The position numbers were made by a program, and so were the translations under genes. The notes below the pieces were generated by a model, which saw nothing but the letters and a program-made list of their open reading frames with translations, ran no database searches and was not told where the DNA came from. A stretch of 64,000 nt of DNA from Halalkalibacter oceani (GTDB lineage Bacteria; Bacillota; Bacilli; Bacillales; Bacillaceae_D): the NCBI RefSeq assembly GCF_023715605.1, contig NZ_JAMBOL010000001.1, positions 1 to 64,000 of the forward strand. Reading direction: 5' to 3'. The stretch's first letter is position 1. The number at the start of each line of letters is the position of its first letter. Shown here one piece after another: positions 1,654 to 16,263 of this stretch.

Positions 1654-4048
<2,395 letters not shown>

Positions 4049-4503: not shown

Positions 4504-4560
4504 TAGATTAGGTAGTATTTGTTTGGTATAATTATAGGAGCGAGTTAATATAAAGGAGGT
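4504..4560 (+). promoter_or_regulatory. putative promoter and RBS of the methylase/Dnd-like operon
   Basis: A perfect -10 box TATAAT lies at 4527-4532, with only a weak -35 (TAGATT) 17 bp upstream. An excellent ribosome site AAGGAGGT at 4553-4560 precedes the ATG at 4568. The weak -35 leaves room for activation. Confidence 0.5.
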
Positions 4561-4567
4561 CTAGCAT

Positions 4568-4756
4568 ATGTCGAATTCAACTACAGAAAAATGGTCATCA
4601 CTAGACGAAATTGCTGAACATCTAGGTATTAGCAAAGATACTGTGTATAGATGGATAGCTAATAAGCAAATGCCTGCGCATAAGATCGGTAGACTATGGA
4701 AATTCAAGGTCAGTGAAGTTGATGAGTGGGTAAGAAAAGGAAAGAGTAGTGATTAA
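4568..4756 (+). CDS. small excisionase-family helix-turn-helix protein
   Basis: A 62-residue protein consisting almost entirely of one winged helix-turn-helix of the MerR/excisionase (DNA-binding domain, excisionase family) type: SLDEIAEHLGISKDTVYRWI, then KIGRLWKFKVSEVDEWV. Such proteins bind DNA and act as small regulators or directionality factors. It is the first gene of the operon, with AAGGAGGT 7 nt before the ATG, and it ends 19 bp before the methylase start, so it is probably the local transcription regulator. No integrase is nearby, which argues against a true excisionase role. Family is clear, function inferred. Confidence 0.8.
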   Translation: MSNSTTEKWSSLDEIAEHLGISKDTVYRWIANKQMPAHKIGRLWKFKVSEVDEWVRKGKSSD

Positions 4757-4775
4757 TATGGTGGAGGAAATAACT

Positions 4776-7511
4776 ATGAATACTAAAGAAATACTAGACA
4801 AGATTTTTAAAGATCCCAAGACATTATATGAATTAACTGAATTTGATACACTTGGAAAGCTTCTTCATGAAATAGTGAGTATTTATCCTAAGACATCGGA
4901 CTCAGGTCGTGATGCTGGAAAGACAAAGTATTATATGAAAAGTTTTGTTCCATTTTCTTCAGGAAAAGAAGAAGTACAAGTATATGATGAAAATGGAAAG
5001 TCTAATCCTGAAGAAATTGTTCGACAGCTATGGGTATATAAACTATTAAATATGTATGAATATAAGGCTGACGAAATTGAACTTGAAAAAAGTGTACACT
5101 TTGGTACCGAAGTCAATGCAAAGGCTGCAGATATTATCGTATATACAGATAGTACAAAACAAACACCTAAAATTATCATTGAAGTTAAGAAGCCAAAAAG
5201 GAAAGACGGTATTGAACAATTAAAAAGCTATCTTAATGCACAGGGTTCACCAGTAGGAGTATGGTCAAATGGTAGTGATAGTATTATCTTATTTAGGCCG
5301 TATCCTGCTAATTTTGATGATACTCTTGTTGACATCCCAAAAAGGGGACAAGAGCCTAAAGATGTACTAGAAGCTAAAAAAACGCTTGCACATCTTAAAA
5401 AGAGCTTTAACTTTAAAAAAATCATACAAGACCTTGAAGAACTAGTTCTTGCTGACAGTGGTAAAGATGAATTCAATGAAATATTTAAGTTAATATTTGC
5501 AAAGATTTGGGATGAAAAAGAAGCTGCAGAAAATCGCACAAATCAAGAAGTTCGTTTTACTAAGGCTTTAGATCCTGAGATTACATACGAAAGAATTAAC
5601 AATCTCTTTAAAAAGGCTTGCGAAGAATGGCCTGGTATTTTCAAAGAAGGAGAAGATATAGAACTTACTAAAAAGCATTTACAAGTTTGTATTGGACCTA
5701 TTGAAGGTGTTCGTTTGATGGGCTCAAATCTTCGCATTATGGATGATGCGTTTGAGTATTTGCTTCCAACTGAAGCCAAAAAGAAAAAAGGACAATTTTT
5801 TACGCCACGTCATGTAGTAGAAATGTGTGTACGTATGTTAAACCCTAAGAAAAATGAATTCGTAATGGATCCATCTTGTGGATCGGCAGGTTTTTTGTTA
5901 CATACAATGGAATGGTGTTATCCTGCAGATGATAAGGATAGTAGAGAACTTAGAAAGCATCGTTATGCAGCCAAGTATTTGTGGGGAATAGATTTTGAAG
6001 AGAGGGCAGCTAAGACATCTCGTGCTTTAATGCTGATAGCTGGAGATGGTCATACAAATATTTTTGGTCCGGATGTAAGTAGTCTAGACCCGAAAACTTG
6101 GCATGAAACACCATCGGGTCAAAAACTTATGAGTAAGCTCATTGAGTCTAAGCTTTTAAAAAATAGACCTTCTCGGGAAGATGAAGCAAAAGTACTTAGG
6201 GACGAGGATCTTGCATGGAAGTATTTTGATGAACTTCAATTTGATGTAATCCTTGCTAACCCACCTTTTGCCGGTGAGATGAAAGATAAAACTATGCTTT
6301 CACATTATGAATTAGCAAAGCCAGCACTCAAAAGAGCAAAAGATAAGGCTGCAAAAGAAGAAAGAGACGTTCTTTTTATTGAACGAATTCTAAAGTTTTT
6401 AAAACCAGGAGGACGTGCAGCAATCGTTTTACCACAAGGTAAATTTAATAACTCTTCCCTTGCCTTTATCCGAGAATGGATATTAAGGAAGGCTCGATTA
6501 CTCGCAGTTGTAGGCCTACATCCTAATACTTTTAAACCTCATACGGGAACAAAAACTTCAGTTCTTTTTGTACAAAAATATACTGATACTGAATTATCCA
6601 AGATTAAGTTAGTTAAGGAAGAAGTAGCATCAGCTTGTCCTGATTATGAAGCGGACATTAAACAACTATTAAAAGAATTTGATAATAAAGTAGATGTGCC
6701 GGATGAAAATATTCCTGAAGCGATAGCAGAAGTCTTGTTTGAAAACTTTGGAGAAATTGAAACAGAATTAATAGATACAGAAGAAAATGAGGATGATTCC
6801 TCTATAGAACAAATTATAGAAGTTCCTGAAATTGAAGATTTAATTGAACAGGCAGCAGAGAACATCCTCTCATTAAAAAGAGAACTTTTAAAAGAAAAGC
6901 AAAAGTTAGAGGATATGCAATCTGACATAGAAGCTTTAAATTTAAAAGCCGTACAAGAAATAGAAGTTATAACAAATAATTGGACCGGGACAAAAAAAGC
7001 TCTGGCAGCAGAATTAAGACCTATTAAACAAAGACTTAAAGAAAATGTAAAATATTTGAAGAATTCACAAAAAGAAGAAACTAAAAGAATTAAAGCGAAA
7101 ATAAAAGGATTAGAAAAAGCTATTCCTAATGCTGAGTATGAACTAAAATTACTTACAAACCGTGGGAAGTTGGAACTATTACTTGCAGATGAGGAAATGA
7201 CGGGTACTTTAAAAGATCGCTGGATAGATGAAGAAGTAGCAAAGAAATTAGACTACCCAATTTTTATGGCTGTTTCCGAAAGAGGCGGAAAGAACAACTC
7301 AGGGGACTATGAATATATTACTGATGAAGACGGTGGGATAATTGAGTATGATGATGGACAACCAGTTATTGACCAAGACTTAGTCAATTTTGACTTAGAA
7401 CCAAGTGATTTAAAAGACGCTAAAGATTTAACTGATGATAAAGTCTGTATCGCCGAAGCTTTTGTTCGGTTTGCTCAGAAACATGGTTTTGAGTTCTGGA
7501 GGGAAATGTAA
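4776..7511 (+). CDS. hsdM: N6-adenine DNA methylase with N-terminal PD-(D/E)xK-like domain (HsdM-like)
   Basis: About 911 residues, far longer than a usual HsdM (about 500). The N-terminal region resembles the HsdR N-terminal nuclease fold: an ADIIVY aspartate near residue 119 and IIIEVKKP near 133-140 form a D...ExK pattern. The type I methylase core follows: KGQFFTPRHVVEMCV, SAM motif I DPSCGSAGF near 365-373, and catalytic motif IV NPPF near 494-497. A lysine/glutamate-rich coiled coil (about 670-805) and an acidic tail follow. The start at 4776 is chosen for the GGTGGAGG site 8 nt upstream; longer in-frame starts exist. The stop overlaps the hsdS start (TAATG). It probably methylates adenine in a sequence chosen by the adjacent HsdS. 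Whether the N-terminal domain cuts DNA is inference. Confidence 0.85.
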   Translation: MNTKEILDKIFKDPKTLYELTEFDTLGKLLHEIVSIYPKTSDSGRDAGKTKYYMKSFVPFSSGKEEVQVYDENGKSNPEEIVRQLWVYKLLNMYEYKADEIELEKSVHFGTEVNAKAADIIVYTDSTKQTPKIIIEVKKPKRKDGIEQLKSYLNAQGSPVGVWSNGSDSIILFRPYPANFDDTLVDIPKRGQEPKDVLEAKKTLAHLKKSFNFKKIIQDLEELVLADSGKDEFNEIFKLIFAKIWDEKEAAENRTNQEVRFTKALDPEITYERINNLFKKACEEWPGIFKEGEDIELTKKHLQVCIGPIEGVRLMGSNLRIMDDAFEYLLPTEAKKKKGQFFTPRHVVEMCVRMLNPKKNEFVMDPSCGSAGFLLHTMEWCYPADDKDSRELRKHRYAAKYLWGIDFEERAAKTSRALMLIAGDGHTNIFGPDVSSLDPKTWHETPSGQKLMSKLIESKLLKNRPSREDEAKVLRDEDLAWKYFDELQFDVILANPPFAGEMKDKTMLSHYELAKPALKRAKDKAAKEERDVLFIERILKFLKPGGRAAIVLPQGKFNNSSLAFIREWILRKARLLAVVGLHPNTFKPHTGTKTSVLFVQKYTDTELSKIKLVKEEVASACPDYEADIKQLLKEFDNKVDVPDENIPEAIAEVLFENFGEIETELIDTEENEDDSSIEQIIEVPEIEDLIEQAAENILSLKRELLKEKQKLEDMQSDIEALNLKAVQEIEVITNNWTGTKKALAAELRPIKQRLKENVKYLKNSQKEETKRIKAKIKGLEKAIPNAEYELKLLTNRGKLELLLADEEMTGTLKDRWIDEEVAKKLDYPIFMAVSERGGKNNSGDYEYITDEDGGIIEYDDGQPVIDQDLVNFDLEPSDLKDAKDLTDDKVCIAEAFVRFAQKHGFEFWREM

Positions 7512-8869
7512 TGGCTGTTTGGAGTACAACAACTGCAGTAGAATTATCGAAGAATAATAGAATTGATAGTGAATTTTTCCATCCTGGCTACTTAGCTTCG
7601 GAGGATAAAGTAGTTAATTCTATAGAGTATAAGAAATTAGGTGAATTAGGAAAATTCCTTATTGGCCCATTTGGATCAGCTTTCCATGTTAGTAATTATG
7701 ACCCTAAGTCTAAGTATCGTTATATAAGAGGAAAAGATGTTAAACCTTTTACTCTTTTAGATGACGATAATGTGTATATGCCTGAAAAGGATTATAAGAG
7801 ACTAGTCAAATATGCAGTCATGCCAGATGATTTACTAATCTCAGTGGTCGGAACACTTGGAAATGTAGCTATTGTCCCACAAAATATTGAAGGTATCTTT
7901 AGTTGTAAGAGTACAGTGTTTAGAGACTCAATTATTGATCCTTATTATTTGTTAGCGTATTTTAATAGTAAGTATGGCCGTGATTGCTTATTAAGACGAC
8001 AAAGAGGGGCCATACAAACTGGGTTAAATAAGGATGATTTAAAAACTGTTCCTGTTCCAATTTATCCAAAAGAGGAAAAAAATATTGCTGATTTAGTACG
8101 TTCTTCTCTTGAGTTAGCGACAAAATCTAAAGATATTTTTGTTCAAGCGCAACAAGTTCTTGAAAAAGCTCTAGGCTTGGCCAAGTTACATCTAAAGAAG
8201 ACAAAATGCTATGAGGCTAATTATGGTGAGATTGTGAGTGGTAGTAGAGTTGATGCTGAATTTTATCACCCACATTCAAAAGAAATATATGAACTTGATT
8301 GTTTTAATAAATCAGTACCTTTAAAAGAGATGTTTACTATTTTGAGAGGACAAACACCTTCTTCCTATTTTAAAGAAGGTATTCCGGTCCTAAAAACTAA
8401 AAATATTAGAACGCCGATTATTGACGAAAGCAAAATAAATGATTTTGTCAATAACTCTGGAAAATATATTACAACAAGGATGAATGATTTAATTATTGCT
8501 TCGATGGGAGTTGGATCTTTAGGGAGAATAAGTTATGTATTTGAAGAAAGTACAAATGCAATTATAGATGGGACACTTAGAATTCTTAGATTTAAAGAAG
8601 GGTACGAATTGGATATAATTCCTACATTACTCTTTCTTACATCCTCTTACGGGCAGGTTTTAATATATCAAGGAATTGTTGGATCGACAGGCATCATATC
8701 TTTGCCAGATTATCATCTCAGAAATATAAAAATACCCATATTAGATTCTAAAATTGCTAGAAGTTTAACTTCATTAGTTCTAGATGGCTATAATTTGAAA
8801 AAGGAATCAGAAAGATTGATTAGAGAAGCTGTAATTAGAGTTGAGAACCTTATCGAAGAGGTGATTTAG
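7511..8869 (+). CDS. hsdS: type I restriction-modification specificity subunit (HsdS-like)
   Basis: A 452-residue protein with two target-recognition halves separated by helical conserved regions. The first half opens with YKKLGELGKFLIGPFGSAF and later has GAIQTGLNKDDLKTVPVPI. The second has VPLKEMFTILRGQTPSSYF and GIISLPDYHLRNIKIPI. This duplicated layout is typical of HsdS, which reads a bipartite DNA site for the methylase. The gene is translationally coupled to the upstream methylase. No HsdR helicase-nuclease gene is present anywhere in the operon, so the restriction partner, if any, must be the Dnd-like genes downstream or the methylase N-terminal domain. Confidence 0.88.
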   Translation: MAVWSTTTAVELSKNNRIDSEFFHPGYLASEDKVVNSIEYKKLGELGKFLIGPFGSAFHVSNYDPKSKYRYIRGKDVKPFTLLDDDNVYMPEKDYKRLVKYAVMPDDLLISVVGTLGNVAIVPQNIEGIFSCKSTVFRDSIIDPYYLLAYFNSKYGRDCLLRRQRGAIQTGLNKDDLKTVPVPIYPKEEKNIADLVRSSLELATKSKDIFVQAQQVLEKALGLAKLHLKKTKCYEANYGEIVSGSRVDAEFYHPHSKEIYELDCFNKSVPLKEMFTILRGQTPSSYFKEGIPVLKTKNIRTPIIDESKINDFVNNSGKYITTRMNDLIIASMGVGSLGRISYVFEESTNAIIDGTLRILRFKEGYELDIIPTLLFLTSSYGQVLIYQGIVGSTGIISLPDYHLRNIKIPILDSKIARSLTSLVLDGYNLKKESERLIREAVIRVENLIEEVI

Positions 8870-8871
8870 TA

Positions 8872-9066
8872 ATGAAATTATCTACCGAAGATAAAACACT
8901 TTTAAAAGAGTTATGTTCACAACATCAAGTGAACTATGAAAAAGTAATAAAACTACTAGACACTGTTCAGGAGTATGAGTTTAAAGATCGTCGAACTGGA
9001 ATTTATGATGCCTTACGTGACATTTTAAGAAGGATGCCCAATGGGGAGGTAAATCATGAAGTTTAG
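8872..9066 (+). CDS. small protein of a DNA-modification operon
   Basis: A 64-residue charged, helical protein (MKLSTEDKTLLKELC..., then YEFKDRRTGIYDALRDILRR). It starts 2 bp after hsdS, with a GAGGTGA site, and overlaps the DndD-like gene by 11 bp, so it is co-translated. Small proteins of this kind are annotated in public genomes as associated with DNA modification systems; I recognise the type but no biochemical function. The position between the specificity subunit and the SMC-like ATPase suggests an adaptor linking the two halves of the system. Confidence 0.75.
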   Translation: MKLSTEDKTLLKELCSQHQVNYEKVIKLLDTVQEYEFKDRRTGIYDALRDILRRMPNGEVNHEV

Positions 9067-11047
9067 AAAATTTACCATTGATAATTATAAGTCTTTTCAA
9101 TTTCCAACAGAAATCCTTTTCCCAGATGGTGATAATGGTAAGTCTATATTTTTAATCGGTGGTATGAATGGTGCTGGTAAAACAGCAATTATGGAAGGTA
9201 TTAGTTATTGTCTTTATGGTGGGAAGGTAGAAGATATTTTTAGAGCAATCAATCGAAAATCACTGGCATTAGGTAATGCTAGTGTCAGCTTTGAACTTGA
9301 AATCGAAATGGATGATGCTTCCCCACTAATTGTGAAAAGATCTTGGAGTGCCGGAGTGATTGATAAACCAAAAGCAAAGGATCTTGAAGAACGTCTTGTG
9401 GTAGTTAGAGATGGTAAGAGAGTTTCGGTACAAAATAAACAAATGTGGCAAGATTTTATCCGAGCAACTATACCACCTGGGATTACACAATTTTTCTTTT
9501 TTGATGGAGAAAAAATACAAGAAATTGCAGCTGACGATCATTCGGAAATTAGGCTAAAGTCCTCCCTTGAAGCTGCATTGGGAATTGAATATATAAACAA
9601 GCTGTCCTCAGATTTGCTATATATAAAGCAAGAGGAGAGAAAGGGTTTTATTGAAATTTCGGATGAAGACCTTGATTTTAAAGAAAGCGAATTGAAACTT
9701 CAAAAGAGTAAACTAGAAAGATTAAATAAAAAACGTTATGAAATAAAAGAAGATCTTGAATCGTTTAAGGCTCAAAAAGAAGAGGCGAGTAAGAGATTTC
9801 AGGCACACTTTAATGTAGAGCCAGAGACACGAGATGCTATTAGAGAAACTGAAAAACGTAGAATACAGACAGCTAATAGATTAGGTCAAGTAGAAAGTGA
9901 AATCCGTACTCTTTGTGAAAAATACCTACCTTATAGTTTATTAGGTGGTTTATTTGAGGGGATTAAACAACAAATCGAAGATGAAAGAGAATCTACCCAG
10001 GGAGAAGCAATTAAACAAAATGCAGCAGAACTGGCGAAAAGAATAGTTCGTGCTGTAGAAGATCCTGAACCTATTTATAAAGAACGCCTTTCGTATGAAA
10101 AAATGGCTGAACTTGAGAAACGAATTTATACACTCTTGAGTGAAGGGGATTCAGTAAATTCCGCTATAAAAATATTAAATCTTTCAGATAGAGACGCAGC
10201 TAGATTACTTCAGAGAATGGAGGAAATAGAAAATTGTGATATTTTTCTATTACAGCCGTTACTAGAAGAGAAAAAAGAACTTGGGATTGAATTAGATAAG
10301 ATTGAATTTTCTTTGCAAAGTGGAGCTGCAACAGACTCTGAGAGAGAGATTTTCGATCAACTTCAATCCGAAATTGAGGGGTGTACAACACAGATAGGCC
10401 GTAAAACGGAACAACTAAGATTATTAGAAGAAGACATCCTGATTTATGAAAAGAAAATAAGAGACATTGAAATTGAAATTGAAAAGCTTTATGAAAAGCA
10501 TAATGTTTCAAAAGTTAAAGCTGATTTTATTGAGGAATGTGATGCAATTGCGGGGTTACTAAATCAATTTATAATTCGCATGAGAAAAAATAAGGTACAT
10601 CTTCTTCAAGAAAAAACCTACGAAATGTATAAATTATTGTCTTCCAAAAGTGGATTAATTAAGGATATCACTATTGATGACAAGACTTATGAGATTAGGA
10701 TATTAGATAAAAATGGACAAGAAATAAAAAAATCAGGGCTATCAGCTGGAGAAAAAGAAGTTTTTGCATTGGCTTTACTATGGGGGCTAGCTCAAACAAG
10801 TGAATTAAAGTTACCAATTATAATTGACACACCACTATCACGGCTAGATAGTACTCACCGTGATAATATTATTCGTAATTACTTTCCCAATGCCGGGGAA
10901 CAAGTAATTATTTTGTCTACTGATACTGAGATTGATAATAATTATTTTAAAAATTTGCAAAGCCATTTGAGTGGTGCGGTTAGTCTTGTATTTAATCAAC
11001 AGCAAGAGCTTACCACTCTAAAAACCGGCTATTTCTGGGAGGTTTAA
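9056..11047 (+). CDS. dndD: DndD-like SMC/Rad50-type ATPase
   Basis: A 663-residue ABC-type ATPase with the head-coil-head plan of SMC/Rad50/DndD proteins. It has Walker A GGMNGAGKT near residues 36-44, long coiled coils at about 190-500, the ABC signature LSAGEKE near 561, and Walker B IIIDTPLSRLD near 588-598. The N-terminal block YKSFQFPTEILFP and the FFFFDGEKIQEIA motif are characteristic of the DndD subgroup. In Dnd systems DndD is the ATPase of the phosphorothioate-incorporating complex, but here no dndA or dndC sulfur-transfer gene accompanies it. It probably uses ATP to alter or sense DNA together with the DndE-HerA protein encoded 2 bp downstream. Confidence 0.87.
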   Translation: MKFRKFTIDNYKSFQFPTEILFPDGDNGKSIFLIGGMNGAGKTAIMEGISYCLYGGKVEDIFRAINRKSLALGNASVSFELEIEMDDASPLIVKRSWSAGVIDKPKAKDLEERLVVVRDGKRVSVQNKQMWQDFIRATIPPGITQFFFFDGEKIQEIAADDHSEIRLKSSLEAALGIEYINKLSSDLLYIKQEERKGFIEISDEDLDFKESELKLQKSKLERLNKKRYEIKEDLESFKAQKEEASKRFQAHFNVEPETRDAIRETEKRRIQTANRLGQVESEIRTLCEKYLPYSLLGGLFEGIKQQIEDERESTQGEAIKQNAAELAKRIVRAVEDPEPIYKERLSYEKMAELEKRIYTLLSEGDSVNSAIKILNLSDRDAARLLQRMEEIENCDIFLLQPLLEEKKELGIELDKIEFSLQSGAATDSEREIFDQLQSEIEGCTTQIGRKTEQLRLLEEDILIYEKKIRDIEIEIEKLYEKHNVSKVKADFIEECDAIAGLLNQFIIRMRKNKVHLLQEKTYEMYKLLSSKSGLIKDITIDDKTYEIRILDKNGQEIKKSGLSAGEKEVFALALLWGLAQTSELKLPIIIDTPLSRLDSTHRDNIIRNYFPNAGEQVIILSTDTEIDNNYFKNLQSHLSGAVSLVFNQQQELTTLKTGYFWEV

Positions 11048-11049
11048 AA

Positions 11050-12576
11050 ATGGCAGATAGATTGTATACAAGCTCTGAATCAGAGGAGATATTGAGTGCT
11101 CTTAGGTTTGAGACAAAACTTGAAAAGTATATATTAGCGAGAATGGCTTTTGCATTATCTCTGGAAATAGATGGATCTAATATTCCTACAAGCAATAACA
11201 TTAGTGGGGGAGAAATGAAAAGACCCACATTCGTAGGAACTGACGAAATGTTTCTAAAAGCCACTTTAGCATACGCTCATAAAATGCCAGATATTGCTGA
11301 AGATGATTTTTATTCTAATAAGTCACTTATAAAAAATCATATCGATAATGGATGTAGACATTTATCACGAATTTTTGATGAGTCAGGTCATAACTCTGAT
11401 ATATTATTAAGAAAGATAGTTGATTTGGTAGAGTTTAGTGGACGAAAAGAAATCAAGGGTTCTGGCTTAGATCTTTTTATCGGAAAGACTGTACTTGATA
11501 AAAAAGAGATTACCCTTGAACTAAATAACACATATAAACACGCCAATTCACACTTAGCGATAATGGGGAAGCCTGGAGTTGGGAAAACACAATTTCTTTT
11601 AAAAATCCTTGCAGATATTCGAATTAAGTCAAACTATCAGACTAATTTTATTTTCTTTGATTATAAGGGTGATGTAGTAGATAATCAAAAATTTATAGAT
11701 ATTGCAAAGGTACAGCCATATAGGTTGTTACAGGGCAATCAGACTTTACCTATTAACCCATTTGTTTTACCTAACTACGAAGAACAGACAATCAATGTTT
11801 CTGCACGTGAAAAAGCTGAAAGTTTTGCCTCAATAAATTCAAAGTTAGGTGTAGTTCAAAAAGGGGCTTTAACAGAGGCTATACGTGCTGCTTATGCGAA
11901 AAGATCAGAATCAGCATTGCCATATCCTGATTTTCAAGATGTTCTTGAACTAACTATGGCAATGTATGAAGAAGATAATAAAAAAGATGATAGTTTAATT
12001 GAAGTGTTAAGGGATTTATCCGACTTTGATTTATTTTGGAAACATGGAAGTGAAACAGAACCAATTGAAAAACTCACTAATAGGACACTTTTAATTGACG
12101 TTCACGCAATGCCTGTTCTCAAAGAATTGGTAGGTTATCTTGTTATCGAAAGGCTGTATAAAGAAATGGCTTCTTTGCCTGATAGCCCTGTTGAAGATGG
12201 TAGAAGGACCATTAGGACAATTTTAGTTATTGATGAAGCACATAACTATTTAGGTCAAAAAAACATATTTCTAGAGCGTATAATTCGTGAGGGTAGGTCT
12301 AAAGGTATCGTTGTTTTCTTTGCAAGTCAGTCCCCTAACGATTATCAGCAGAAGTTTTTTAACTTTCAAGAACTGCTTGAATTTGCATATATATTTCAGT
12401 GTGAAGGTGTTTCTGCAAGCTCAATGCAAGATATTTTGGGATGTAGTAAGAAAACAGCTTATGATTTGCAAACAGAAGTGGCAAGATTAGAGCCATTTCA
12501 AGTTATCTCTAGAAGTGATGAAAAGACAGCCGAATTTGTAAAGTTTAGTGCTGAAGCATTCTATAAATCATATTGA
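11050..12576 (+). CDS. DndE-like domain fused to HerA/FtsK-type ATPase
   Basis: A 508-residue protein. Residues 1 to about 45 match the DndE pattern (LYTSSESEEILSALRF, then LARMAFALSLE); DndE itself is a small DNA-binding protein. After a linker comes a HerA/DUF87-type motor: Walker A GKPGVGKTQ near 172-180, FFDYKGD, Walker B ILVIDEAHN near 390-398, and the FFASQSPNDY sensor region. HerA-type ATPases form hexamers that translocate along DNA and often partner with nucleases. The RBS GGGAGGT and 2-bp spacing show it is the last gene of the operon, closed by a terminator at 12612. I infer that it is the effector motor of the system. Confidence 0.8.
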   Translation: MADRLYTSSESEEILSALRFETKLEKYILARMAFALSLEIDGSNIPTSNNISGGEMKRPTFVGTDEMFLKATLAYAHKMPDIAEDDFYSNKSLIKNHIDNGCRHLSRIFDESGHNSDILLRKIVDLVEFSGRKEIKGSGLDLFIGKTVLDKKEITLELNNTYKHANSHLAIMGKPGVGKTQFLLKILADIRIKSNYQTNFIFFDYKGDVVDNQKFIDIAKVQPYRLLQGNQTLPINPFVLPNYEEQTINVSAREKAESFASINSKLGVVQKGALTEAIRAAYAKRSESALPYPDFQDVLELTMAMYEEDNKKDDSLIEVLRDLSDFDLFWKHGSETEPIEKLTNRTLLIDVHAMPVLKELVGYLVIERLYKEMASLPDSPVEDGRRTIRTILVIDEAHNYLGQKNIFLERIIREGRSKGIVVFFASQSPNDYQQKFFNFQELLEFAYIFQCEGVSASSMQDILGCSKKTAYDLQTEVARLEPFQVISRSDEKTAEFVKFSAEAFYKSY

Positions 12577-12611: not shown

Positions 12612-12655
12612 GGAGAAGCAAACACTTAAAAGTTGCTTCTCCATTTATTTTTGGC
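12612..12655 (+). terminator. terminator of the methylase/Dnd-like operon
   Basis: Ten-pair perfect stem GGAGAAGCAA/TTGCTTCTCC, followed by the T-rich ATTTATTTTT, 36 bp after the last stop codon. Confidence 0.85.
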
Positions 12656-12670
12656 TCTAAAATAAATGTT

Positions 12671-12737
12671 GGGGTATTCGCACAATGAGGACAAAAAAAG
12701 ACACGCAAGCTCCTTTGATCCTGTTATCCTTGAATTG
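12671..12737 (+). repeat. ISL3 remnant copy 2, left part; direct repeat of 1382-1448
   Basis: These 67 bases repeat 1382-1448 exactly. They end in GAATTG, the left target duplication of the transposon that follows. The sequence resumes at 16019, also with GAATTG. Confidence 0.9.
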
Positions 12738-12950: not shown

Positions 12951-13481
12951 TTGAAAACATACTTACTGGAGTTTTTAGTTAGGGGTGCAGAGAGGATCCC
13001 TTCTCCATGTTGCGGGAAAGACATGCTGGTTAGAGGAACTAGGAATCGAAAAGCCAAGGATCATACGGGACAAAGTAAGACATATAACATTCGGAGGTTG
13101 AAGTGTACCAATTGTGGTACCATCCACCATGAATTGCCGGACTTATTGATTCCTTATAAGCGCTATGAAGCGGAATGTATCGAAGACGTTCTTACAAATC
13201 CATCCACCCACATTGTTCCTGCTGATGATTCCACTCTTTCGAGATGGCATGGCTGGTTTCTAGAATTTGTGGATTATTGGATTGGCTGTTTGACTTCCAT
13301 CATGATCAGAACCAACCAGGAGAATACCCCCCTGGATTACACGTCCAAAGATTCAGGGGCTGCACTTCAAAGGATAGGACGCTTGGCAGGAGATGCCAAT
13401 GGGTGGCTGACAAGAATTGTCCGGCCTATCGTAAATATTAATTTTTGGCTACACACCCGTTCTGCATTCATTGTCCAATAA
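12951..13481 (+). CDS. DUF6431-type zinc-ribbon protein of the transposon
   Basis: About 176 residues with two CxxC-like pairs (SPCCGKDM and LKCTNCGTIHHELP), then YKRYEAECIEDVL and a helical C-terminal part. This resembles the DUF6431 proteins commonly encoded next to DDE transposase plus ATPase pairs in Bacillota; the assignment is from memory of the family. The TTG at 12951 has no good RBS. An ATG at 12923 opens a different frame (MVIVSDYQLIENILTGVF) that looks like a natural N-terminus, so one base may be missing near 12980. A role in target choice or end recognition is possible but unproven. Confidence 0.6.
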   Translation: MKTYLLEFLVRGAERIPSPCCGKDMLVRGTRNRKAKDHTGQSKTYNIRRLKCTNCGTIHHELPDLLIPYKRYEAECIEDVLTNPSTHIVPADDSTLSRWHGWFLEFVDYWIGCLTSIMIRTNQENTPLDYTSKDSGAALQRIGRLAGDANGWLTRIVRPIVNINFWLHTRSAFIVQ

Positions 13482-13527
13482 CCCCTGATTTACACTCATG
13501 ATAGACACAGAAAGGAGAATGTGTATC

Positions 13528-14883
13528 ATGAGGGATCATAAGAAATCAGAAGAATTGGCAGTGAAACGTTTTCAGCTGATATCACCTTTATTGGCAGAGG
13601 GGCTTGACGCTGGAAAAGTGAAGGAATTAAGGAGCCAGATAGCTAAGGCCAATGGCCTTTCAGAAAGAACCATCAGACGATATTTGGCTCAATTTCGGGA
13701 TGGTGGGTTTGGGGGATTGAAGCCTCAATCGAGAAATGTTGCTCGAAAGTCAGAAGCTATCCCTCCTAATCTATTAGACCAGGCGATTCTTCTACGTAAG
13801 GAAGTGCCGAGCCGGAGCGTAGCTCAAATTATACAGATTCTTGAATGGGAAGGGCTGGCTGAACCAGGACAAATCAAAAGGTCAACCCTTCAGGAAAAAC
13901 TGACGGAAAAGGGTTACAGTACACGGCAAATGAGACTCTATTCCCAGACAGGAGTAGCCGCCCGAAGGTTTCAGAAACGACATCGCAACCAACTCTGGCA
14001 ATCAGATATCAAGTATGGTCCTTACTTGCCGATTGGTCCGAATGGAATGAAGAAACAAGTGTATCTTGTTGCTTTTATCGATGACGCCACCAGGTTTATG
14101 CTTCACGCAGCTTTCTATCCTACCTTGGATTCAAGGATCATTGAAGATGCCTTCCGGCAGTCCATCCAAAAGTATGGTGTTCCAGAGGCTGTATATTTTG
14201 ATAACGGCAAGCAATATCGAACCAAATGGATGACACGTACCTGCTCAATAATAGGCACTCGTCTCACTTACACAAGGCCGTATGCAGCGGAATCGAAGGG
14301 CAAAATTGAAAGGTTCAATAGAGTCATAGATTCATTCATCAGTGAAGCTGTCATCGAAAAGCCGAATACTCTGGATCGTCTGAATGAACTCTTCCAAGTC
14401 TGGCTGACTGAGTGCTATCAGAATAAGCCTCATTCTGCACTTGGGGAGAAAATCAGCCCGGAAACCGCATTTCGTTCAGACAAGAAAGCGATTCGGTTCA
14501 TCGATCCAGAAACGTTAAGCAATGCATTTCTTCATTGCGAGACAAGAAAAGTCGATAAATCAGGATGCATCAGTTTCATGGATCAGAAATATGAAGTGGG
14601 CTTGACATTTATTGGACGTCGGGTTGAGGTTATCTATGATCCTGCGAATATTGAGGAGCTTACCATTGAGTTCGAGGATTATACTCCTTGGAAAGCCAAG
14701 AAGCTTGTGATTGGAGAAAAAGCTGGGAAGCGTCCTGCATTACCTGAGCACCTGCAGGTGCAGGGTGTTGACTCTTCAAGACTATTAAAGGCAGCTGAAC
14801 GAAAGAACCAGGAACGTCAAATCGAACAGAAGCCTGCCGTGACCTTCCGTGGCGTTTGGAAGGAGGATGATTCACGTGTTTGA
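13528..14883 (+). CDS. DDE (retroviral-integrase type) transposase, TnsB/Tn552-like
   Basis: A 451-residue protein. The N-terminal helix-turn-helix domains include GLSERTIRRYLAQFRDGGFGGL. The rve catalytic core has Asp near 160 (LWQSDIKYG), Asp near 225 (YFDNGKQY) and Glu near 260 (ESKGKIERFN), giving the DDE triad. A Mu-type C-terminal beta domain ends the protein. This catalyses strand transfer of the element ends. Start 13528 is preferred because AAAGGAG lies 9-10 nt upstream. The stop overlaps the ATPase start. No TnsA-like endonuclease is encoded, so transposition is expected to be replicative (cointegrate-forming) as in Tn552/Tn5053. Confidence 0.88.
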   Translation: MRDHKKSEELAVKRFQLISPLLAEGLDAGKVKELRSQIAKANGLSERTIRRYLAQFRDGGFGGLKPQSRNVARKSEAIPPNLLDQAILLRKEVPSRSVAQIIQILEWEGLAEPGQIKRSTLQEKLTEKGYSTRQMRLYSQTGVAARRFQKRHRNQLWQSDIKYGPYLPIGPNGMKKQVYLVAFIDDATRFMLHAAFYPTLDSRIIEDAFRQSIQKYGVPEAVYFDNGKQYRTKWMTRTCSIIGTRLTYTRPYAAESKGKIERFNRVIDSFISEAVIEKPNTLDRLNELFQVWLTECYQNKPHSALGEKISPETAFRSDKKAIRFIDPETLSNAFLHCETRKVDKSGCISFMDQKYEVGLTFIGRRVEVIYDPANIEELTIEFEDYTPWKAKKLVIGEKAGKRPALPEHLQVQGVDSSRLLKAAERKNQERQIEQKPAVTFRGVWKEDDSRV

Positions 14884-15676
14884 AGCCTTCTATGAAATGG
14901 AGAACACGCCTTTCACTAGAGATTTGCCAACGGACCAATTGTATGATTCCTCTATGATGCAAGAAATCCTTGGAAGGTTGAAATATACAGCTGAAAGACA
15001 GCTTTTTGCCGTCCTGAGTGGAGATAGTGGAACGGGAAAAACGACGACAATCCGTAAGTTTGTGGACAAATTGGATAAAGGCAAATTCCACGTTCTTTAT
15101 CTATCCGACTCTAAGTTAACTCCTCGCCATTTTTACAAGGGGCTACTGGAACAACTGGGCTCTGAAGCGAAGTTTTATCGAGGAGATGCAAAACGGCAAC
15201 TTCATCGTGAGATTGAATTAATGAAAGGCATACGAGGACTACAACCAGTAGTCGTAGTGGATGAAGCTCACCTTCTGGATCGGGAAATGCTTGAAGAGGT
15301 CCGTTTTCTTCTAAACTTTAAAATGGATTCGCTAAGTCCAATGGCGCTTATCCTTGTCGGTCAAAGTGAATTGTGGGACCGACTACGCTTACAGTCATAC
15401 ACAGCCATACGTCAAAGAATTGATATCCAATTCCAGCTAGGACACCTCGATCGTGCTCAGGTTGAGGAATATGTTACTGGGCATCTTCGATATGCAGGAG
15501 TTGATCAACCAATCTTTTCAGATGGGGCGATTGGCGAAATTCATCGGTTCTCTGGTGGTGCCGCAAGGCTCATTAATAAACTCTGTACACATAGTCTTCT
15601 GTATGGCTCACAAAATGGCCGTAGGATCATTGACGATCATATGATCAAGCAAGTCATCCAAGGGGAACTCTCATGA
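14876..15676 (+). CDS. ExeA/TnsC-like AAA ATPase of the transposon
   Basis: A 267-residue ATPase from GTG 14876 (AAGGAGG 9 nt upstream; the ATG at 14867 is too close to that site). It begins MFEAFYEMENTPFTRDLPT, the hallmark of the ExeA-type group, with Walker A SGDSGTGKTTT near 47-57, Walker B VVVDEAHLL near 125-133, and sensor/arginine-finger region AIRQRIDIQFQL. In Tn7, Tn552 and Tn5053 the equivalent protein (TnsC/TniB) activates the transposase and carries target information. It overlaps the transposase gene and the next small gene by a few bases, so the three are translationally coupled. Confidence 0.87.
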   Translation: MFEAFYEMENTPFTRDLPTDQLYDSSMMQEILGRLKYTAERQLFAVLSGDSGTGKTTTIRKFVDKLDKGKFHVLYLSDSKLTPRHFYKGLLEQLGSEAKFYRGDAKRQLHREIELMKGIRGLQPVVVVDEAHLLDREMLEEVRFLLNFKMDSLSPMALILVGQSELWDRLRLQSYTAIRQRIDIQFQLGHLDRAQVEEYVTGHLRYAGVDQPIFSDGAIGEIHRFSGGAARLINKLCTHSLLYGSQNGRRIIDDHMIKQVIQGELS

Positions 15677-16018: not shown

Positions 16019-16263
16019 GAATTGACGAGAAACAAAGAAAGGATGGAGCTGCGTGCAACAAAAGTCTATCATGAAAATCCCAGGATTAAAAGAGGTTTGC
16101 GTGACAAAGGTAGAAGAACGAGAGAATGGAACCAGGCGTTGGGGATGAGGGTGATCGAAGGGAACAACTTTACGGATACAGCCAAGCAGTACCATACCTC
16201 TCTGACGCCGGCGATCGCGATTGATGAATACAAGGCAGATACGCAAACAGGAGTGTATGTATG
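16019..16263 (+). pseudogene. ISL3-family transposase remnant, copy 2 right part
   Basis: This continues the interrupted remnant: GAATTGACGAG to about 16130 is nearly identical to 1443-1550. It then jumps by internal deletion to a later part of an ISL3-type transposase (TPAIAIDEYKADTQTGVYV, resembling the IDEF segment at the start of the ISL3 DDE domain). The stop TGA is at 16261-16263. Downstream to 16430 nothing further is recognised. Confidence 0.6.

Follow-up and report, generated by a model that had tools for sequence, protein, structure and literature searches.

Positions 4,568 to 12,576 of a 64,000-nucleotide stretch of Halalkalibacter oceani DNA (contig NZ_JAMBOL010000001.1; hereafter, the window) hold a six-gene operon encoding a helix-turn-helix (HTH) protein, a protein in which a nuclease domain is joined to an N6-type methyltransferase (MTase) domain (the R/M protein), a specificity (S) subunit, a 64-amino acid (aa) protein, the ATPase DndD, and DndE fused to a HerA-type ATPase (Table 1). 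Probably, the operon encodes a methylation-marked restriction system that is driven or boosted by a DndD/DndE-HerA engine. The first-pass annotation of this DNA proposed that methylation replaces phosphorothioate as the self mark and that the DndD/DndE-HerA pair is the sensor-effector. The first proposal is still the most likely one, considering that the only DndC match in the genome is the 64-aa gene and that the linkage of the genes is conserved; the mark would be a putative adenine methylation. As for the second, the operon is indeed of the defence type, but a nuclease-bearing restriction-modification (RM) enzyme with a Dnd engine fits it better.

The R/M protein

An HSDR_N_2 domain (PF13588) precedes the N6_Mtase domain (PF02384) in the R/M protein, and the methylase keeps the NPPF motif. 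Across 31 sequences, the nuclease residues D128 and K147 are each present in 30, and E145 in all 31, as are Q157 and Y161 of the HsdR-type QxxxY motif (numbering counted from the GTG at 4749). The best solved relative is RM.BsaXI (8w0p, E = 3.1e-29), with the nuclease, MTase, and C-terminal stretches matched; RM.BsaXI is a type IIB enzyme whose S subunit is a protein of its own, and it is not known to have a DndD or HerA partner. Judged by its sequence, the R/M protein combines both activities, nuclease and methylase, so the lack of HsdR noted in the first-pass annotation does not amount to the lack of a nuclease. An HsdR helicase was indeed not seen: no PF04313 (HSDR_N) match was detected in the H. 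oceani genome (99.95% complete), compared with matches in 9 of 14 control genomes, and on this ground an HsdR encoded elsewhere in the genome was ruled out. What appears to be absent is the superfamily 2 (SF2) motor, not the nuclease, and the operon supplies other predicted motors. The nearly invariant residues of the HsdR-type nuclease domain in gene 2 bring the operon closer in appearance to a complete RM enzyme equipped with a Dnd engine than to a methylase with a Dnd effector.

Distant relatives of the R/M protein, 670–690 aa long and lacking the insert that corresponds to residues 640–830 of the window protein, are encoded beside S in genomes G803, G900, G558, and G353; in a fifth relative, G305, the R/M match is split over two frames. 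The ExK residues are retained in the five standalone relatives inspected. A standalone R/M and S pair, the R/M being 69% identical to the window protein, occupies 60–4198 of L097 (NC_021575.1), a 27-kb cyanobacterial plasmid, adjoining ParA/ParB. In Picosynechococcus pAQ6 (L099, NC_010480.1, 9839–20019), a relative of gene 2, an N6 methylase gene of 3.5 kb, is followed downstream by a gene for a strawberry-notch-type protein, with a helicase-related protein encoded close by; this is perhaps another type of defence.

The small protein and the Dnd machinery

The 64-aa gene is the sole match to the DndC model in the H. oceani genome (model positions 388–445; 24.6 bits against a cut-off of 290.4). 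When compared by hhalign with the tails of eight DndC proteins, seven from genomes of the host's order and one from the distant DndE-HerA locus L076, the small protein aligned to the DndC end (E = 2.2e-8, probability 95.3), the best of 20 column-shuffled controls yielding E = 0.098. This homology identifies the 64-aa protein as a DndC C-terminal tail without the sulfurtransferase. The first-pass annotation was right that the gene is real and that DndC is absent but missed the identity of this product. In a set of 35 genomes with the operon, some DndC match was found in 26; four of these exceed the cut-off, a further match (G205) extends over the DndC body but scores below the cut-off, and the remaining 21 match in the tail only, between positions 363 and 447. 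Thus, 31 of the 35 genomes have no DndC over the cut-off and 30 have no DndC body.

In L076, the same element forms the end of a real PAPS-reductase DndC (match to the small-protein hidden Markov model (HMM), E = 1.8e-4), and in two other distant loci, L073 and L078, a free gene of 60–63 aa, similar by eye, precedes DndD. The simplest reading is that the tail element docks a modification enzyme on DndD and is kept when DndC is replaced. L078 also encodes, at 4594–7437, an 874-aa HNH-repeat and HARE-HTH protein, with the free 63-aa small protein directly before DndD.

The window DndD contains a Walker A motif (GMNGAGKT) and an LSAGE signature, and direct reading of its sequence revealed no CxC or CxxC motif. 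The HerA part has Walker A and DEAH motifs, with DptH as the nearest solved structure (7es4, 6.2e-18); the DndE part exceeds the cut-off of PF08870 and scores 41.4 bits against the 71.85 required by TIGR03184.

Conservation and linkage across bacteria

Relatives were collected with DndE-HerA alone as the query, that is, blind to the methylase; 101 loci were confirmed, 80 were kept, and 63 of these were classified as close (a best HerA segment with at least 50% identity plus a DndD match; 17 of the 80 were excluded). The R/M gene, counted as present upon any tblastn match with E ≤ 1e-3, was seen in 37 close loci and was absent in 8, absence being called with at least 5.5 kb of upstream sequence; the other 18 did not extend far enough to tell. 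In 8 of the 37 positive loci, the best R/M segment falls short of 800 aa (127 aa in the shortest, L040), and the R/M stretch of L009 contains an in-frame stop. All five core genes, from R/M to DndE-HerA, are present in 35 loci, in the same order and on the same strand in every one, and are full length (85–130% of the window protein) in 26, which together with the window make 27 full-length sets. Co-occurrence of all six genes, the check proposed by the first-pass annotation, was borne out for the core but not for the HTH gene, the least conserved member, which was detected in only 5 of the 80 relatives (L002, L010, L015, L019, and L037; tblastn E ≤ 1e-3).

According to the record titles, the R/M-positive loci come from Gamma-, Alpha-, and Betaproteobacteria, Desulfobacteraceae, Bacillota, Flavobacteriaceae, Bacteroidales, Nitrospirae, Phycisphaerales, and Omnitrophica. 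In the DndE-HerA tree (FastTree; branch supports not inspected), they are spread over the close clade, including the deep-branching L058; the DndC-linked L076 falls outside this clade, and two archaeal HerA proteins are on long branches. Within the 27 sets, the identities of DndD are rank-correlated with those of MTase (0.75), HerA (0.90), and the small protein (0.73), none of 500 permutations reaching as high in any of the three cases. On this genomic evidence, the linkage between the methylase and the Dnd half extends across phyla and is not a matter of chance. The first-pass annotation had named DndC or HsdR encoded elsewhere, and lost linkage between the two halves, as grounds for giving up its reading; none of the three checks overturned it.

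The distribution of the system is sporadic. Searches with the R/M protein of 369 gammaproteobacterial genomes and of 395 genomes from the phylum of G185 yielded five matches each: the already known G180, G181, and G185, the new G966 (among the 395 genomes), which carries the whole operon, a 288-aa fragment in G835, and five relatives with 46–49% identity. Among 398 genomes of the host's own phylum, the protein was found only in H. oceani and in G1264, which by coordinates is the genome of L049; a search of 380 genomes from the L039 phylum detected it in the genome of L039 alone.

Specificity

The S subunit departs from the rest of the core. Mean pairwise identity across the 27 sets is 0.79 for MTase, 0.79 for HerA, 0.70 for DndD, and 0.63 for the DndE domain, against 0.21 and 0.28 for the first (TRD1) and second (TRD2) target-recognition regions of S. 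The rank correlation with DndD is 0.05 for TRD1 (160 of 500 permutations as high) and 0.26 for TRD2 (6 of 500). A variable S alongside a conserved core is the pattern of RM specificity swapping, and S is the predicted determinant of specificity. The pattern does not suggest DndE as the target chooser here, a role proposed for it in general in the text of PMC10853773.

Accessory proteins and swapped partners

One to three additional proteins with a common helical N-terminal module are encoded in 39 of the 63 close loci, 23 of which belong to the 37 R/M-positive ones, and 42 of the 53 copies are located between S and DndD. Using HMMs derived from our alignment, 34 of the 53 ends were classified as Mrr_N-like, 10 as RAMA-like, and 9 as other. 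The Mrr_N-like class is less sure, since every row that lacked the RAMA motif (22 of 31) went into its HMM. A Pfam check of 11 accessory proteins placed four over the RAMA cut-off and one just below it, and two over the Mrr_N cut-off, with two just below, one weak, and none in L032. The model of the L032 protein is locally confident (mean predicted local distance difference test score 86.7; predicted TM-score 0.44); Foldseek returned no match at E ≤ 0.001, the top rows being mostly winged helices, with DpnI at rank 11 (E = 0.22), so the modelled protein may at most be called a winged helix. Prokaryotic winged helices have been reported as N6-methyladenine sensors, and RAMA has been suggested to be a reader, although one study was unable to confirm its preference (both in the text of PMC11037411). 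The accessory proteins were found only in core loci, with none in the scanned stretches with standalone methylase and S genes.

Genes for RhuM, YhcG, and DarTG are also found between S and the small protein in relatives of the operon. In L028 (4067–5757), DarT and DarG occupy this position, followed by three tandem accessory proteins.

In one of the eight cores without R/M, L039, the place of R/M and S is taken by a PF01555 methylase and an endonuclease of the TdeIII type (PF09520), encoded on the strand of the core (4556–7038); behind them come the small protein, an accessory protein, a DndD that a frame break divides in two, and DndE-HerA. As judged from its gene content, L039 is the clearest sign that the partner of the engine is a complete RM unit, not just a methylase. 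For the other seven, no partner was resolved among the few neighbours scanned. Three proteins encoded beside cores (L041:6395, L012:11554, and L021:10346) produced no Pfam match at E ≤ 0.01.

Relationship to known systems

The text of PMC10853773 describes, as a subset of Dnd systems (HerA clade-3), a DndD-related ABC ATPase next to a DndE-HerA/FtsK fusion, and the window operon shares this adjacency of DndD and fused DndE. That subset is placed among the phosphorothioate-modification systems, cytosine methylases being named for the CxC branch, where DndDE cores are suggested to recruit base methylases. The main text of PMC10853773 contains no HsdM, HsdS, "specificity subunit", or Mrr and no RAMA domain (both matches to "rama" are personal or fellowship names). 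With phosphorothioation systems proper, the window operon has in common a DndD that exceeds the family cut-off, but not the DndC sulfurtransferase. Prevotella strains without Dnd genes are reported in the text of PMC5608340.

The combination of nuclease and N6-MTase in one predicted chain, with a separate S, is a trait of type IIB-like RM enzymes (BcgI/BsaXI); in contrast, no PF04313 match in the H. oceani genome corresponds to the HsdR of type I RM (HsdRMS), with its nuclease and SF2 helicase. The window HTH, methylase, S, and HerA-type ATPase resemble MAD1, MAD2, MAD5, and mad8, respectively, of MADS (mad1–8; Maestri et al. 2024). The scores stay below the NCBIfam cut-offs (MAD1, 77.1 against 80; MAD2, 271.2 against 720; MAD5, 130.1 against 400), on which account a true MADS was rejected; PADLOC mad8 matches the HerA part with 71.4 bits, and no other MADS family is among the NCBIfam matches listed (E ≤ 1) for the six operon proteins scanned. 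DndD and DndE are extra in the window operon compared with MADS. Among the matches listed, the window HerA domain is closest to the DndH C-terminus and to DptH (7es4) of the DndFGH (DptFGH) system; no DndF or DndG is among the matches listed for the six proteins, which were the part of the genome searched for them, and the nuclease here lies on the methylase, which retains NPPF. BREX-related capture (BRC) is likewise a defence operon with a DndH-related HerA/FtsK translocase but has PglZ, DUF6079, DUF4007, and STAND, the text of PMC12839542 naming neither DndD nor DndE. The window operon might fall under the PADLOC category "DMS_other", the genes of which resemble those of MADS, Shango, phosphorothioation, and BREX systems (text of PMC13321033).

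The remark of the first-pass annotation that no named system has this gene set needs to be narrowed. DndD beside DndE-HerA is already published (PMC10853773), and MADS profiles match parts of the operon, albeit below the NCBIfam cut-offs. The five-gene composite, the DndC-tail identity, the RAMA/Mrr_N accessories, and the TdeIII version were not found in searches of the open-licence PMC literature, including the text of PMC12707154 and PMC12602166; they may have been described earlier elsewhere, for instance among "MADS-like systems".

Proposed mechanism and alternatives

In the methylation-marked restriction system that we favor, the R/M protein and S would form a BsaXI-like (type IIB-like) enzyme, with S picking the DNA site and the MTase setting the self mark there by methylating an adenine; the HsdR-type nuclease fused to it would be able to cut. 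The 64-aa protein would act as a free DndC docking tail that couples DndD and DndE-HerA to the complex in the place of the sulfurtransferase. On unmarked incoming DNA, presumably of phages or plasmids, the S-bound complex would load the engine, and DndE-HerA would encircle the DNA and pump it to the nuclease of the M subunit, replacing the SF2 motor of HsdR. As a broader and more tentative proposal, which we regard as possible but rather doubtful, DndD/DndE-HerA might be a portable scanning-pumping engine with the DndC tail as the plug: fused to DndC, it would serve phosphorothioation and, when free, a BsaXI-like enzyme or the L039 methylase/TdeIII, while swappable RAMA/winged-helix proteins would report methylation.

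Several observations weigh against the favored mechanism. The R/M-S pair occurs alone on plasmid D of Trichormus variabilis, where R/M is 69% identical to the window protein and a tblastn search of the whole 27-kb plasmid yielded no match to DndD, DndE-HerA, or the small protein, so that particular enzyme does not strictly require the engine. No R/M gene lies near eight of the cores (two of the loci, L053 and L079, look broken or partial), and a search of these eight genomes produced a single distant R/M match, with 41% identity. Correlated identities are what transfer as a unit produces and are no proof of contact, and the whole S correlates, weakly, with DndD (0.37; 1 of 500 permutations as high). 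The window operon itself has no accessory protein detectable by the HMM scan and may be a minimal version or one that has lost this component; a DndDE core with another type of RM is known from one locus, L039; and binding of the small protein to DndD is something we infer.

Some of these points are what would be expected of two separate, co-travelling systems, namely, a type IIB-like RM that is sufficient on its own and a defence module made up of DndD, DndE-HerA, and the small protein. Apart from the Trichormus pair and the eight R/M-less cores, this explanation is favored by the 670–690-aa relatives, which adjoin S with no DndD or DndE-HerA match in the fetched stretches of G803, G900, G558, and G353 (10.7–19.9 kb each). 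We nevertheless consider it unlikely, given that the genes overlap or are 2 bases apart, that the order of the five genes is the same in all 35 loci that show them, reaching the deep-branching L058, that the L039 core follows another methylase and endonuclease, and that the accessory proteins were encountered only in core loci. Slightly less likely still is a BREX-like or MADS-like methylation-gated block, in which DndD/DndE-HerA would be the effector and the PD-(D/E)xK domain would only bind DNA or be rarely used: the resemblance of HTH, M, and S to MAD1, MAD2, and MAD5, and of the HerA part to mad8, speaks for it, but the nearly invariant catalytic residues with QxxxY, the ExK kept also in the five standalone relatives, and the TdeIII endonuclease in the sole replacement, in L039, are at odds with a dispensable nuclease. 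A phosphorothioate (Dnd) system relying on a DndC gene outside the operon could account for the DndD score over the Dnd cut-off, for the link of the distant L076 with a PAPS-reductase DndC, and for the DndC found over the cut-off in 4 of the 35 operon genomes and partially in one more; however, with no DndC body in H. oceani or in 30 of these 35 genomes, phosphorothioation in trans was rejected and appears highly improbable.

Operon layout and genomic setting

Table 1. Features of the operon in the H. oceani window.
Feature	Coordinates	Strand	Evidence
Excisionase-type HTH, 62 aa, probable regulator, MAD1-like	4568..4756	+	TIGR01764 65.3 bits (cut-off 28.8); NF047737 MAD1 77.1 (cut-off 80)
R/M subunit, 911 aa: predicted HsdR-type PD-(D/E)xK, N6-type MTase (NPPF), coiled-coil-like insert	4776..7511	+	PF13588 1.6e-19; PF02384 4.9e-35
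Specificity (S) subunit, two target-recognition regions	7511..8869	+	PF01420 Methylase_S 4.2e-11, two stretches
Sp-DndD small protein, 64 aa, DndC C-terminal-tail homologue, proposed DndD adaptor	8872..9066	+	PF20306 39.3 bits (cut-off 27.2)
DndD, SMC/Rad50-like ABC ATPase	9056..11047	+	TIGR03185 372.4 bits (cut-off 245.85)
DndE (residues ~1–110) fused to HerA/FtsK-type ATPase (~139–508)	11050..12576	+	PF08870 47.7 bits (cut-off 25); DUF87 35.1 bits (cut-off 23.2), 1.9e-8
TATAAT box, extended -10 context TGGTATAAT, possible operon promoter	4527..4532	+	direct sequence reading
Terminator-like hairpin, perfect 10-bp stem, 11-base loop, T-rich tail ATTTATTTTT	12612..12642	+	direct sequence reading

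All six open reading frames are present on one strand as first annotated, and their tight coupling was confirmed, with an overlap or a 2-base gap at four of the five junctions: the R/M stop overlaps the S start by 1 base, the 64-aa gene overlaps DndD by 11 bases, and there is a gap of 2 bases both between S and the 64-aa gene and between DndD and DndE-HerA. R/M probably starts at the ATG at 4776, after GGTGGAGG and a short gap behind the HTH gene, and not at the GTG at 4749; 7 of 10 genome matches of the R/M protein start at query residues 7–12, which fits the ATG but is no proof. The TATAAT box noticed in the first pass is present, but no -35 element was paired with it in a promoter scan (37 promoter-like sites in the scan versus 33.5 ± 5.7 in shuffles), and an operon promoter at this position is weakly supported. 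The terminator-like hairpin was seen directly; it is not among the five listed by a terminator scan (3.8 ± 1.9 expected), and its loop exceeds the loop limit of 8 in that scan.

The operon was described as AT-rich, and its GC content is indeed 33–34%, compared with 40–50% in the remaining 4-kb steps of the window. Two direct repeats bracket the region: the 68 bases at 1381–1448 recur unchanged at 12670–12737, and the 106 bases at 1443–1548 recur at 16019–16124 with 95% identity; by eye, the repeats look like an ISL3-type remnant. Together with the adjoining cluster of 13 tRNA genes upstream (50–1286), they might delimit a composite island. Immediately upstream of the operon (1752–3723) are open reading frames for an IS21-like transposase, apparently frame-broken, and its helper ATPase, and downstream (12951–15676) there is a transposon-like set consisting of a zinc-ribbon-like frame, a DDE-type integrase, and an ExeA-like AAA ATPase (families assigned by eye in both cases).

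Among 60 genomes including that of H. oceani, the whole DndE-HerA protein was found only in the latter; two others, one of them among 12 congeners, produced weak matches (24–28% identity) within reading frames some 1,735 codons long, DndH-like by size. The best full-length match in the contig collection came from the gammaproteobacterium Bowmanella (80% identity over 508 residues). From these comparisons, the operon looks like a horizontally acquired unit. A phage-borne origin was considered and dropped: no DndE-HerA or R/M relative was confirmed in viral contigs, and 50,697 phage records contained just three matches to the HerA part, with less than 60% identity. Close plasmid copies of DndE-HerA were likewise rejected, the 21 matches in 72,556 records all being below 60% identity.

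Implications

If the mechanism proposed here is correct, one motor module would serve the marking of both the DNA backbone, with sulfur, and the bases, with methyl groups, and the gain of a translocase by a helicase-less type IIB-like enzyme would be explained. The small protein would acquire a testable job, that of a docking plug in the place of DndC, and the role of DndD and DndE, whether as scanner or as modifier, would become testable without sulfur chemistry.

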